Of a stretch of 64,000 nucleotides of DNA, positions 7,219 to 63,664 are shown in pieces. The notes beneath the pieces are model-generated. The model did not search any database. It had not been told where the DNA came from and worked only from the letters and a program-made list of their open reading frames with translations. The number at the start of each line of letters is the position of its first letter. Position 1 is the stretch's first letter. This DNA comes from Gelidibacter salicanalis (GTDB lineage Bacteria; Bacteroidota; Bacteroidia; Flavobacteriales; Flavobacteriaceae): contig NZ_VORX01000001.1 of the NCBI RefSeq assembly GCF_007997285.1, positions 620,001 to 684,000 of the forward strand, read 5' to 3'. Made by a program: the position numbers and the translations under genes.

Positions 7219-8506
7219 TTAATGTTTTGTAGTGCTTCAACAATTCCGCTTTGTTTCTGTGGGTTGATTGTGCCCAAGCACTAATAAAGGCCTCCATAAA
7301 TAAATCGGCTTTCAGGCTGTAGCCCAACTGTGTAAAATGGATCCGATCTTTGGGCATCAATTTATTTTGGTACCATTTATTTGAGGAACCCAGTCCGCCC
7401 ATAACATCGTATAAATCCCAAACCGCCATATTGTATTTTTTCGATAACTCCATGATTACTTGTTGTTGGGAGGCAGTATTGGGGTTGGGAATTTTTCGCT
7501 TATAATAATCGTCATTAGGAACTGTCAATAAAATAGCACAGTTAGGATTTGCTCTTTGGATCATTAGAATAAAAGCTTCGTAATAGGCACGAAATTTTTC
7601 GGGATCAAATTCGCTTTTAGGCATATACGCATCGTTGGTGCCAAGAGAAATAATAAATAAATCCGGTGTGTAAAGTTGCAATTGTTTTTCAAAGTAGGCC
7701 GCTCGGTTAAAATAAGCGAAACTTCCACCGTTTACGCCAATGCTGGTGTATTCAATGCCCTCATCGTCATTCATGAATTCCATGCCCATTAAGGCAAACT
7801 CAGGATCGGTTTGGGTGGAATCTTTTAATTCCAAACAAAAAGCGACTTCGTCAATCAATTTATTAAAGCGAAACTCCCGATACATTTTATCGAGATTTAA
7901 AGTGTCAGAGATGACCAGGTCAGGGTTAAGGACGGTCAAATTGTAATCTGATTTCCACGTATTATAGAATACCCTGAGCTTATTAAATTCATAAGGTTGA
8001 TTGGTGTAATTGCGGTAATTGGATTTGACATAAATTGTATCTGACTTCCCTCTGAATGCGGCAGTTATCCCTGCCAAACCCCAAGCAATGCTGTCTTTTC
8101 TAATTGAAGAACGGTATCCTTGCCATTTTGTTTTGGTAGCTTTTATCTCATAGTTGGTGGGATTGTTAGTGTGTGCAAGATGATACGGAAAAACAAAGCC
8201 CCGTTGGCCTTGAGAAACTGTATTGGTGTTTTGAAGGTAAGTCCTTATTTTATTGGAATAGATATCTGCTTGAATATGGGAACCACCAATATGAAAAATA
8301 TGCAATTTTTGCTTTTTCCCGGTATAAATGGAATCCATTTTAGCGAAGAACTGATGAAATGTCGGGGAGTTTTCCGCCATTTTAAAAGTATTCGCTTCAA
8401 AATTAATCAAGTGCCCAAATTTGGGAGTCAAACTATCCAGAATAAAATTCTGTCCGAAAAGAGTTGAGGTGAAGATTATAAAAAGGGTAATTATGATACG
8501 TTTCAT
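7211..8506 (-). CDS. Secreted SGNH/GDSL-like hydrolase, O-acetylation operon
   Basis: A signal peptide (about residues 1-19, ending FGQ) is followed by an SGNH-fold domain. Block I is FHIGGSH (71-77) with the probable nucleophile Ser76, block III is LGTND (288-292), and block V is DRIH (387-390), so Ser, Asn, Asp and His of the active site are all present. Such proteins act as periplasmic acetyltransferases or esterases beside AlgI-type MBOAT proteins, as AlgJ/AlgX do for alginate. Overlap with its neighbours by 4 bp upstream and 8 bp downstream shows tight coupling. Whether it adds or removes acetyl groups cannot be read here. Confidence 0.85.
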   Translation of the reverse strand: MKRIIITLFIIFTSTLFGQNFILDSLTPKFGHLINFEANTFKMAENSPTFHQFFAKMDSIYTGKKQKLHIFHIGGSHIQADIYSNKIRTYLQNTNTVSQGQRGFVFPYHLAHTNNPTNYEIKATKTKWQGYRSSIRKDSIAWGLAGITAAFRGKSDTIYVKSNYRNYTNQPYEFNKLRVFYNTWKSDYNLTVLNPDLVISDTLNLDKMYREFRFNKLIDEVAFCLELKDSTQTDPEFALMGMEFMNDDEGIEYTSIGVNGGSFAYFNRAAYFEKQLQLYTPDLFIISLGTNDAYMPKSEFDPEKFRAYYEAFILMIQRANPNCAILLTVPNDDYYKRKIPNPNTASQQQVIMELSKKYNMAVWDLYDVMGGLGSSNKWYQNKLMPKDRIHFTQLGYSLKADLFMEAFISAWAQSTHRNKAELLKHYKTLNE

Positions 8507-55765: not shown

Positions 55766-56290
55766 ATGACACTAGAAATCATTGTTTTCATCGGCTCCAT
55801 ATTATTCGGAATCTTGTTATATTGGCGTGAATCAACCGGCAACGGACTCTATCGATTTATAAATAAGATGATGTATTCCAAAAAGTTGCAAATGTCACCA
55901 GACAATCCAAGGGGTTTTGTATACCAACAAAAATTTCTATTACGTTTGGTATTCATCACGATGATTTTTTTGGTTGGAATTTTAATCGCTCGATTTTTAA
56001 TTCCAATTGATATAGCAACCATTTCAGTATTCGCTTCAAGTATTGTCGGGACGCTTATTGGGACTTATATTGGCGGTTTTGTGCTGAAATCTGAAAAAGT
56101 AATCGATGCCCATAGTGATTCCATTGAAGAAAAATTTGATCATGCAATAGATCAAGGTCGCGATTTTATTCAGGATATCACCTCTAGAGAACCAAAAGTG
56201 GTGGAGGAAGCTAAAAAGGAAATCGAAGAAAATCCTGTTGAGCCTAAGAAGAGTGCTAGAGAGCGATTGAAGGACAAAGGTTTGATGTAG
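55766..56290 (+). CDS. Small membrane protein of the AAA operon
   Basis: The start at 55766 gives 174 aa; a GTG frame from 55691 is rejected because it would translate the repeat tract. Membrane segments are at about 4-20, 54-72 and 76-98, the last with GTLIGTYIGGFVL. The cytoplasmic tail is acidic and helical (EEAKKEIEENPVEPKK), ending LKDKGLM. Not recognised. It may anchor the AAA/coiled-coil proteins to the membrane, which is inference only. Confidence 0.68.
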   Translation: MTLEIIVFIGSILFGILLYWRESTGNGLYRFINKMMYSKKLQMSPDNPRGFVYQQKFLLRLVFITMIFLVGILIARFLIPIDIATISVFASSIVGTLIGTYIGGFVLKSEKVIDAHSDSIEEKFDHAIDQGRDFIQDITSREPKVVEEAKKEIEENPVEPKKSARERLKDKGLM

Positions 56291-58087: not shown

Positions 58088-58315
58088 GTCATTCCGACAC
58101 AGTTTTGTCATTCCGAGGTCAGGAGGAATCCCAAAACAGTGCAATCGTGGACTATGATGATGCGATGTCTCATTGCATTCGACATGACAAAACAATCATT
58201 CGTCATTCCAACCCAGTTTTGTCATTCTGACGATGGGAGGAATCCCATAACAGTAATCATCGGTTAATTTGCGTTATGCGATGTCTCATTATATTCGACA
58301 TGACAAAACAGACCT
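58088..58315. repeat. Two tandem ~114-bp palindromic intergenic elements
   Basis: Units 58088-58201 and 58202-58315 both begin GTCATTCC and contain a TTTTGTCATT, a GGAGGAATCCC block, a TGCGATGTCTCATT block and end CGACATGACAAAAC. TTTTGTCAT and ATGACAAAA are inverted repeats, so each unit can fold on itself. The words are of the GTCATTCCGA...GGAATC type well known in Bacteroidota intergenic repeats. Confidence 0.85.
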
Positions 58316-58334
58316 ACCACAAAACAAAATCACC

Positions 58335-59147
58335 CTACCCTAACCGCTTCTGTAAATCCGCGACCACAGTCTCAATCTGCGCATTTTTGTTTTTCCGTTC
58401 CAATAAAATTGGTGGCGCTTGTCTCACCTCACAATCGGTAATCGCACAACGTTCACACGTCACGCCAACCTTTGTGGTTTTGATTTTAGGGTCATTCAAA
58501 AAACCAATTTTTCGTTGCAAGTGTTTGTTGATCAACAGCCCAATACTGATGCTTCTGTACTGATTATCTCTAAAGGGATCTTTTGTAGCGGATGATAATA
58601 GTAAATATTTCATATCATCATCAGGATAATCCGATATTTGAAGATCAAAAACATGATCCTCTTTGGTGCTGCTTATAGTTTTTAAAACTCTTAAAGAAAC
58701 CCAACGGCGACAATAATGTTCGTTAGTTTCATTGGCGCGTGGGGAATGCTGATGCGACAAATGCAATTCTTTTTTTAGATGAAAACGTTCACTGCCTGCA
58801 CGATGTGTAAAGCGCAAGAAAAATAAATCTTGAATATTAAACTCTTTAGGAAGCACATTGGTCAAGCGTTGATAAAACGATTCTGGCGATGCATTGTAGG
58901 AGTTTATAATTTCTAAAAACAAGTGTTCATCAAACGTCTCATTTTCAAATAAGGTGGTAAGTTGTTCGGTAATCTTGGCTTTAGGTAAAATCAGCGCCCC
59001 AGCAAAATACGATGCGTAAAAATTATTCAATACCTGGTCAAAATTTTCAAATTTAATCCATGAAAAGGTGTAAAGCCGTTCTTTGTATTGCAGAAAATTA
59101 TAAGCCAGTTCTTTGGCATAAATGAACGTCCGTTGTGCATCATCCAT
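58335..59147 (-). pseudogene. RamB/ScfR-type XRE regulator, N-terminal half deleted
   Basis: The 270 codons match the C-terminal part of the short-chain-acyl-responsive XRE regulators that control the glyoxylate shunt: RTFIYAKELAYNFL, YTFSWIKFENFDQVLNNF, ASYFAGALILP, NEHYCRRWVSLR and a terminal cysteine cluster (CERCAITDCEVRQAPP). Full-length members are about 480-500 aa and start with a helix-turn-helix; here the DNA-binding domain and roughly 200 residues are gone. Homology stops at 59147, exactly where the isocitrate lyase remnant begins. The frame is intact but without DNA binding it is probably not functional. Confidence 0.85.
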
Positions 59148-59447
59148 TTGATTACGTTACCTACATATCATACAACCGCTTTGCACATGAATGATTTAAC
59201 TGAAGGATACTTTGGAGAAGAAGGGATGTTGGCGTATGTAAGAGGCGTTCAGAGGCAAGAAATCCGTAAAGGTGTCGCTTGTGTAAAGCACCAACGTATG
59301 GCAAGATCTAACCTTGGAGACGATCACAAAACGTTTTTTGCTGGTGAAAAAGCGTTAAAAGCAGATGGCGAAAAGAATACGTCAAATCAGTTTGAAGCCA
59401 TTGCGGAAGCTACTGCTGTTGAGCAACCCTTAAGTGTTGTCGCTTAA
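59148..59447 (+). pseudogene. aceA: Isocitrate lyase, 3' remnant
   Basis: About 100 codons match the C-terminal end of the flavobacterial isocitrate lyase: ITLPTYHTTALHMNDLTEGYFG, MLAYVRGVQRQEIRKG, CVKHQRMA, GDDHKTFFAGEKALKA and NTSNQFEA. The first ~430 residues, with the active site, are missing. An in-frame ATG at 59088 lies inside the regulator's opposite strand and adds no homology. The frame and the downstream terminator are still intact, so the deletion is fairly recent. The usual partner, malate synthase, is absent here. Confidence 0.88.
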
Positions 59448-59474
59448 TAGCAAATCACTATTAAATGATACTAA

Positions 59475-59502
59475 AAAACTCCAGAAGTCATTCTGGAGTT
59501 TT
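59475..59502 (+). terminator. Terminator retained behind the isocitrate lyase remnant
   Basis: AAAACTCCAGAA pairs with TTCTGGAGTTTT around GTCA, with T-run. Confidence 0.85.
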
Positions 59503-59535
59503 TGAATTAGGTAAGAATCTGATATTTTTTAATTC

Positions 59536-60009
59536 CTATTGTTCCTTAAATTTTAATAGCATTTTAATGTCACTACGCTTATAAATGCAATTCGGTTCCA
59601 TAGGAACTTCTATAAACCCATACTTTTTATAAATGTAAATAGCGTTCTCAAGTTTGGTACTGGAATAGAGGAGTAACGAGTTAAATCTGTTCGCTTTGGC
59701 AAAGTCAATACAATGCTGCATCAACTGCTGTCCAATTTTATAACCCCTATGTTCAGGAGACACGGCCATTTTAGTAAGTTCAAAAATCTCAGCATCTTCA
59801 GTGGACATTAAGGCAACAGTTCCGACAATGTCCTCATGAAGCTTTGCGAAGAAAATATAACCACCCTTTTCAATGATGTATTCTTCAGGTTTGCTTAAGA
59901 CTTCGTCATCAAAAGGTTCTATTACAAAAAACTTTTTGAGCCATTCTGAATTAAGCTTATAAAAATCCTTCGCGTATACTTTATCAAAAGGGATAATATT
60001 TATCATCAT
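59536..60009 (-). CDS. GNAT-family N-acetyltransferase
   Basis: The 157-aa protein has the acetyl-CoA binding motif VSPEHRGYKIGQQLMQHCIDFA (about 88-109), a GTVALMSTEDAEIFELTKMAV strand before it, and a YKKYGF motif near the C-terminus, as in classical GNAT enzymes. Substrate unknown. Its start overlaps the stop of the preceding membrane protein gene by four bases, making it the last gene of a hutG-led unit. Confidence 0.88.
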   Translation of the reverse strand: MMINIIPFDKVYAKDFYKLNSEWLKKFFVIEPFDDEVLSKPEEYIIEKGGYIFFAKLHEDIVGTVALMSTEDAEIFELTKMAVSPEHRGYKIGQQLMQHCIDFAKANRFNSLLLYSSTKLENAIYIYKKYGFIEVPMEPNCIYKRSDIKMLLKFKEQ

Positions 60010-62416: not shown

Positions 62417-63664
62417 CTATACTTCTTTTTTAAGAATTTTTCCTCTAACAATAACGGTCTCAATTAAATTGTCTCCAAATGCATAAGGGAGATTATTATA
62501 ACTCGCGATTTCTTTGGTGATGATGATATTCGCTTTTTTGCCTCTACAGATGCTACCGTATTGATTAGATAAGCCCATCGCATATGCCCCATTTATGGTG
62601 GCAGCATTAATAGCTTCTTCAGGAGTCATTCTGAGTTTGATACAGGCGGTGCTGACCACGAAGTTCATATTGCCACTTGGAGTAGACCCCGGATTATAAT
62701 CGGTAGCCAAAGCCAATGGAAGGCCTGCATCTATAATTTGTCGTGCTGGCGAATAAGGAATGCTTAAAAAATAAGAACAGGAGGGAAGTGCCACCGGCAT
62801 TGTATCAGAGCCTTTTAAGGCTTCAATATCCTCTGGTCTCATTTCTTCTAAATGATCTACAGAACGGGCATTGTGTTCTACGGCAAGCGCAACGCCTCCA
62901 AAAGCATTAAATTGATTGACGTGAATTTTCGGGGTCATGCCATGTACTGTTCCAGCGGCTAAAATACGATCGGTATCTTCCAAATCGAAATAGCCTTTTT
63001 CACAAAACACATCCACAAAATCAGCAAGATTGGCTTTTGCAACCTCAGGTATCATTTCCGAAACAATAAGATCGACATATTTTGTTTTATTAGCTTTATA
63101 CTCTCTGGGTACAGCGTGGGCGGCGAGTAACGTGGTTTTTATAGCTGCTAAAGACTCTTTCTTTAAGCGTTTTATAACGCGAAGCATTTTCATCTCAGCC
63201 TCAACAGTAAGGCCATAACCTGATTTTATTTCTATAGCGCCTGTGCCTAATTGCATTACTCTATTTAAGCGCACCAAGGATTGTTGATACAGTTCTTCTT
63301 CTGAGGTGTTTTGTAAGACTTCAGCAGAATTAAGAATGCCGCCACCGCGTTCAGCAATTTCTTCATATGTTAGCCCATTGATGCGGTCAACAAACTCTTG
63401 CGATCTATCTCCAGCATAGACAATATGAGTATGGGAATCACACCAGGCAGGAAGTACAATTTTGCCTGTCGCGTCGATAACCTCTTCGGCTTCATACTCG
63501 GTATATTCTGACATCGGACCATATTCTACAATAGTATCATTTTCAATGATGAGATACGCGTTCTTGAGCGTAGGAAGTGTTTTCATGTCTTCACCCTTTA
63601 CAATGGTCACGTTGGTTTCTCTAACTTGAAGCAGTTCCTTTATATTTTTGATGAGTATGGACAT
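62417..63664 (-). CDS. hutI: Imidazolonepropionase
   Basis: Amidohydrolase cleaving 4-imidazolone-5-propionate to N-formimidoyl-glutamate, third step of histidine degradation. The 415-aa protein has the metal motif DSHTHIVYAGDR (HxH, about 77-88), AHAVPREYK, HVNQFNAFGG and ATDYNPGSTPSGNM with the catalytic Asp. Product feeds hutG at 60271. Its mRNA leader is a hexad tract (63670-63711) with no clear Shine-Dalgarno site. Confidence 0.94.
   Translation of the reverse strand: MSILIKNIKELLQVRETNVTIVKGEDMKTLPTLKNAYLIIENDTIVEYGPMSEYTEYEAEEVIDATGKIVLPAWCDSHTHIVYAGDRSQEFVDRINGLTYEEIAERGGGILNSAEVLQNTSEEELYQQSLVRLNRVMQLGTGAIEIKSGYGLTVEAEMKMLRVIKRLKKESLAAIKTTLLAAHAVPREYKANKTKYVDLIVSEMIPEVAKANLADFVDVFCEKGYFDLEDTDRILAAGTVHGMTPKIHVNQFNAFGGVALAVEHNARSVDHLEEMRPEDIEALKGSDTMPVALPSCSYFLSIPYSPARQIIDAGLPLALATDYNPGSTPSGNMNFVVSTACIKLRMTPEEAINAATINGAYAMGLSNQYGSICRGKKANIIITKEIASYNNLPYAFGDNLIETVIVRGKILKKEV

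Follow-up and report, generated by a model that had tools for sequence, protein, structure and literature searches.

Genes and Features at the Locus

The window analysed here is a stretch of 64,000 nt from the marine bacterium Gelidibacter salicanalis (Flavobacteriaceae), positions 620,001-684,000 of the forward strand of NZ_VORX01000001.1 (assembly GCF_007997285.1). It carries the 3' parts of two genes placed back to back, one for a regulator of the ScfR/RamB type and the other the isocitrate lyase gene aceA (Table 1). A sequence-only reading had let the regulator homology begin at 59147 on the minus strand and the lyase homology at 59148 on the plus strand, and had described both frames as open; profile matches confirm the two start points, and the frames extend over 270 aa and 99 aa, respectively. 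The main intact reference is an uncultured Gelidibacter sp. (G006), which was aligned across the join together with three further relatives: G. sediminis (G004), G001 and G002.

Table 1. Features on either side of the join in the G. salicanalis window.
Feature	Position	Strand	Remarks
ScfR/RamB-like regulator, C-terminal 270 residues	58335..59147	-	Residues 224-493 of the intact G006 protein; HTH half missing
Join CATTTGATTA, single remaining direct-repeat copy	59145..59154		10 bases, at both breakpoints in G. sediminis
Isocitrate lyase aceA, last 99 codons	59148..59447	+	Residues 445-543 of 543 in G006
Terminator-like hairpin after aceA, retained	59474..59503	+	By folding; similar hairpin 3' of aceA in G006
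GNAT acetyltransferase, right-hand neighbour	59536..60009	-	Also on the intact-aceA stretch of G006, G004 and G001; absent from the G002 stretch

The intact G006 regulator is a protein of 493 aa with an HTH_3 domain at residues 16-68 (37.3 bits, cut-off 23). As the window fragment begins at residue 224, the front with the DNA-binding half is missing, just as the earlier reading had it, and the profile scan returned no HTH match in the fragment. What remains scores narrowly above the cut-off of 24 for Pfam ScfRs (PF09856), with 25.1 bits against 25.7 for the intact protein, and matches positions 38-123 of 123 of the IrrE-like Peptidase_M78 domain with 15.3 bits, below the 22-bit cut-off. The RamB equivalog NF038139, for which the fragment alone was scanned, gave 18.2 bits against a curated 700. 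The stop-to-stop frame measures 273 aa here vs 501-557 aa in ten relatives (eight Gelidibacter, G017 and G025), and in all of the named loci (the best 80 of the 142 found) the match to the regulator starts at residue 1-3 and extends to residue 472 or beyond.

The lyase fragment matches positions 446-526 of 526 of ICL (PF00463; 40.8 bits, cut-off 26) and positions 449-531 of 531 of NF005074 (PRK06498) with 141.5 bits, the fragment alone having been scored with this model; a score below the curated 446 is expected of a fragment. Isocitrate lyases carry the catalytic motif K-K/Q-C-G-H; the intact G006 enzyme (543 aa) has it as KQCGH from residue 216, hence outside the part kept in the window. The stop-to-stop frame is 127 aa long vs 544-583 aa in the ten relatives. 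A loss at the 5' end of about 430 residues had been proposed; the loss stands, while its size comes to about 444 codons, since the fragment begins at residue 445 of G006. At residue 53 of the tail there is an arginine, where a glycine is found in 40/40 loci with the same type of lyase, a count that omits the other 40 of the 80 in which aceA was not covered or the tail was less than 60% identical or unmatched. The best structural chain for this site (6g1o) aligned only to G006 residue 482, short of the changed glycine at 497. Downstream, the hairpin folds at -17.3 kcal/mol (z -6.05), its G006 counterpart at -17.8 kcal/mol (z -5.82), so that the terminator looks intact by folding, in line with the earlier description; a consensus terminator scan listed no terminator, a miss that the pairing of the T run within the stem would probably explain.

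Intergenic repeats that contain GTCATTCCGA or GTCATTCTGA occur in the window at 58088, 58107 and 58221 (region 58088-58320) and again at 62625. In G006 (L024, 515-1198) such repeats form a tandem array with a 115-base unit and 5.4 copies, and one match lies on the G. sediminis stretch.

Ancestral Layout and Origin of the Join

Both fragments were searched for in 39 genomes, including that of G. salicanalis and eight other Gelidibacter. Matches were found in 11 of these, an identical set for the two fragments: G. salicanalis itself, all eight congeners and the two more distant genomes G017 and G025. No match to the G. salicanalis type of lyase tail was seen in 28 of the 31 genera sampled; given that a second, unlike type of lyase exists, this is no proof that the shunt is absent there. 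The two types are about 30% identical and lie downstream of the same aceB, one in 40 and the other in 36 of the 80 named loci, which suggests replacement in place.

The regulator had been said to lie usually divergent from aceB-aceA, and this is borne out: aceB is divergent and adjoins the regulator in 78 of the 80 named loci (best 80 of 142) and in 8/8 other Gelidibacter, in four of which the available stretch ends inside aceB. A full-length aceA frame is present in all eight congeners. Among the named loci aceA follows in 76; the exceptions are two records that end there (L060, L074) and two Xanthomarina without aceB and aceA (L038, L042).

When the window is aligned to the four relatives, the left-hand match continues up to 59153/59154 and the right-hand match starts from 59140-59145, with 3797-3807 bp more between the breakpoints in every one of the four. 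With the breakpoints mapped in this way, a single deletion, as first proposed, explains the join, and the relatives' frames are full length instead of starting at the same points. The longest run shared by the two breakpoints measures 10 bases in G. sediminis, 9 in G001, 7 in G006 and 6 in G002, vs 2-3 in the four more distant Gelidibacter; among 400,000 random pairs of positions 3-5 kb apart on the G. sediminis stretch, at least 10 shared bases were found in 16. A repeat at both breakpoints of which one copy is kept is, as read from these alignments, the trace that a deletion between short direct repeats typically leaves behind. The repeat seems to have arisen in the clade of the nearer species, "nearer" being ranked by sequence identity and not by a tree, and then to have served the deletion.

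A join that sits exactly on a short repeat, in the single assembly by which the species is represented, is also what would be seen if contigs or read ends had been joined wrongly, or if a laboratory subclone had lost the DNA. The repeat is just 10 bases long, however, far shorter than the overlaps commonly used in assembly, and some 59 kb of sequence separates the join from the end of its contig (737,818 bp). Neither aceB nor the front of aceA was found anywhere in the genome, whose listed completeness is 99.97%. The arginine in the lyase tail fits a gene that has been dead for some time better than a new laboratory event, although a single change is thin evidence. An assembly error is unlikely, and we regard an artefact of assembly or culture as very improbable.

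We suggest that a single 3.8-kb deletion took the whole of aceB together with codons 1-444 of aceA, codons 1-223 of the regulator and the divergent promoter region, which holds the likely operator (see below). It would have proceeded by slippage or end-joining between repeats of 6-10 bp, with no need for homologous recombination. This deletion between short repeats, late on the G. salicanalis lineage, with dead remnants and loss of the shunt, is the explanation that we hold with high confidence.

Age of the Deletion and Fate of the Remnants

In the regulator tail, changes unique to the G. salicanalis lineage are synonymous or replacements in a ratio of 19:6 (one codon holding two of the six replacements), and the sisters G006 and G004 show 14:0 and 13:2. 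The corresponding ratio in the lyase tail is 6:1, vs 1:2 and 10:4 in the same sisters. The excess of replacements in the regulator tail over the two sisters pooled (27:2) is not significant (Fisher p = 0.125) and disappears once both tails are pooled (p = 0.77). A dating model was applied in which constraint ends at the deletion and the pre-deletion ratios come from the two sisters, with small counts throughout. For the tails combined it gives f = 0.06, which would place the event within roughly the final 6% of the branch, with a rough range of 0.005-0.18 (0.5-18%). The model rejects relaxation along the whole branch (19 log units) as well as its absence (2.3 log units); taken by itself, the lyase tail fits f = 0 (no relaxation). 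The mostly synonymous change, albeit in small numbers, supports the earlier view of a recent event, which is probably not a brand-new one.

The regulator tail, with 97% identity to G006, an open frame, an in-frame ATG at the join (59147) and a ScfRs domain still over the Pfam cut-off, could instead have been retained in a new role, that of a stand-alone protein which senses acyl-CoA, lacks the DNA-binding domain and starts at this internal ATG. The high identity is accounted for equally well by a recent deletion, and the native promoter region has been deleted. The Bacteroidota promoter pattern has five matches in the window vs 5.5 expected by chance, none of them at the join and the nearest at 55916 and 61309, and the sole sigma-70-like match within 58900-59700 falls inside the regulator frame. 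The cut through the IrrE-like domain speaks against such a role as well, as does residue 209 of the tail, a histidine found in 0/80 relatives. We rate retention for a new role as even less probable than an artefact. Under the deletion that we favour, both remnants would be non-functional pseudogenes and the glyoxylate shunt would be gone.

Consequences for Acetate Metabolism

The deletion would have taken most of the genes on which growth on acetate usually depends. The remainder of the genome was searched for another aceA or aceB, and neither was found. In the G. salicanalis genome, ICL is matched by the aceA tail and by nothing else (the control was positive in 8/14 genomes), and no match to malate synthase was obtained there (control positive in 6/14). 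A transfer of the deleted DNA to another place was considered and rejected, as the deleted G006 segment has no match elsewhere in the genome in a search run without a positive control. The ethylmalonyl-CoA route was likewise rejected as a substitute, the three matches to crotonyl-CoA carboxylase/reductase lying far below the cut-off (best 72 of 378 bits). With regard to light-driven use of the shunt, the rhodopsin family was matched neither in the G. salicanalis genome nor in any of the 14 control genomes, which deprives this negative of weight.

Acetyl-CoA synthetase (acs) is present (958 bits). The cell could thus presumably activate acetate, and would be unable to make net C4 acids from it; from the gene content we predict that net growth on acetate alone is absent. 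The predicted phenotype, a failure to grow when only acetate or fatty acids are supplied, would separate the species from its congeners. As an observation apart, an acyl-CoA-ligase-like frame with one internal TGA lies at G000:C23:40369-41937, near similarly matching frames of 1384 and 1330 codons, and this region is possibly a peptide-synthetase cluster.

A Candidate Operator of the Regulator

Upstream of the regulator, at roughly -61 to -70 when counted from residue 1 of the G006 frame, the palindrome GCGAACGTTCGC is present in exact form in 72 of the 80 named loci. Two of the remaining loci, both from Xanthomarina without aceBA, have its 10-base core only, and six from Flavobacterium have neither. 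In a genome-wide search for exact copies, every one of the eight other Gelidibacter has a single GCGAACGTTCGC, at the regulator-aceB locus, and G. salicanalis has none; a reversed control pattern was found in 0/9 genomes. Weaker sites may exist elsewhere in these genomes. GCGAACGTTCGC is likely to be the operator of the glyoxylate-shunt regulator. Among the literature matches listed for the exact string, only CpG oligonucleotides or adjuvanted vaccines appeared.

The same upstream region holds three TTCGC boxes, 16-19 bases apart, in 29/80 loci. These are reminiscent of the PrpR/RamB motif TTTGC(A/G)AA, as given in PMC6765138, and of the paired boxes of Paracoccus denitrificans RamB, where PMC10370305 describes a site made up of two nearly identical boxes 18 bp apart; the latter likeness is by description and not letter by letter.

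With one GCGAACGTTCGC operator per genome, the regulator may serve a single site in Gelidibacter and perhaps in flavobacteria at large, a proposal that we make tentatively and consider somewhat doubtful. In that case the regulator, its operator and the shunt would constitute a self-contained module, removable as a whole without leaving another promoter unregulated. If true, the shunt could be lost easily, as in G. salicanalis and, through another cut, in Xanthomarina.

Parallel Loss and Comparison with Known Systems

In Xanthomarina spongicola and X. gelatinilytica (L038, L042), aceB and aceA are unmatched both at the locus and genome-wide, and in control searches both genes were matched in the genomes of X. 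sp. F1114 (L034) and G. sediminis (L030). Relative to the intact L034, about 3.8 or 3.4 kb with aceBA is missing in L038 or L042 (around 7230-7340), and no aceA remnant was detected in either by tblastn at 1e-10. In contrast to G. salicanalis, the Xanthomarina regulator is full-length and its promoter region is kept, with the palindrome cut to the 10-bp core; with regulator and promoter kept and aceBA gone, the loss of the shunt there goes back to a different cut, which spared the regulator.

The G. salicanalis locus is an ordinary pathway loss with an unusually clear scar. It offers a little-weathered case of a whole pathway lost at a single stroke, for which ancestor-like relatives are available for comparison, and the comparison around the scar has pointed to a candidate operator for the regulators of the flavobacterial glyoxylate shunt. 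Among the literature matches listed for the Gelidibacter or flavobacterial glyoxylate shunt, acetate, microhomology deletions and proteorhodopsin/Dokdonia, no title dealt with this locus.

The proposed event resembles the direct-repeat deletion studied in mycobacteria, in which DNA between two direct repeats is lost; the deletion there is described as independent of homologous recombination, of end-joining and of single-strand annealing (PMC3519483). It differs in being a natural event, with a shared run of 6-10 bp and 3.8 kb between the copies.

The closest parallel to the ancestral layout is found in P. denitrificans, where, according to PMC10370305, a ScfR-family ramB lies reversed and directly upstream of malate synthase and icl and controls the glyoxylate cycle, and where a regulator mutant has a growth defect resembling that of an icl mutant. 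The same arrangement, a ScfR-family regulator divergent from malate synthase and isocitrate lyase, is intact in the Gelidibacter relatives. Unlike P. denitrificans, which by the same account has an intact locus and the ethylmalonyl-CoA pathway too, G. salicanalis retains a scar at this position, and its ccr matches are under the cut-off.
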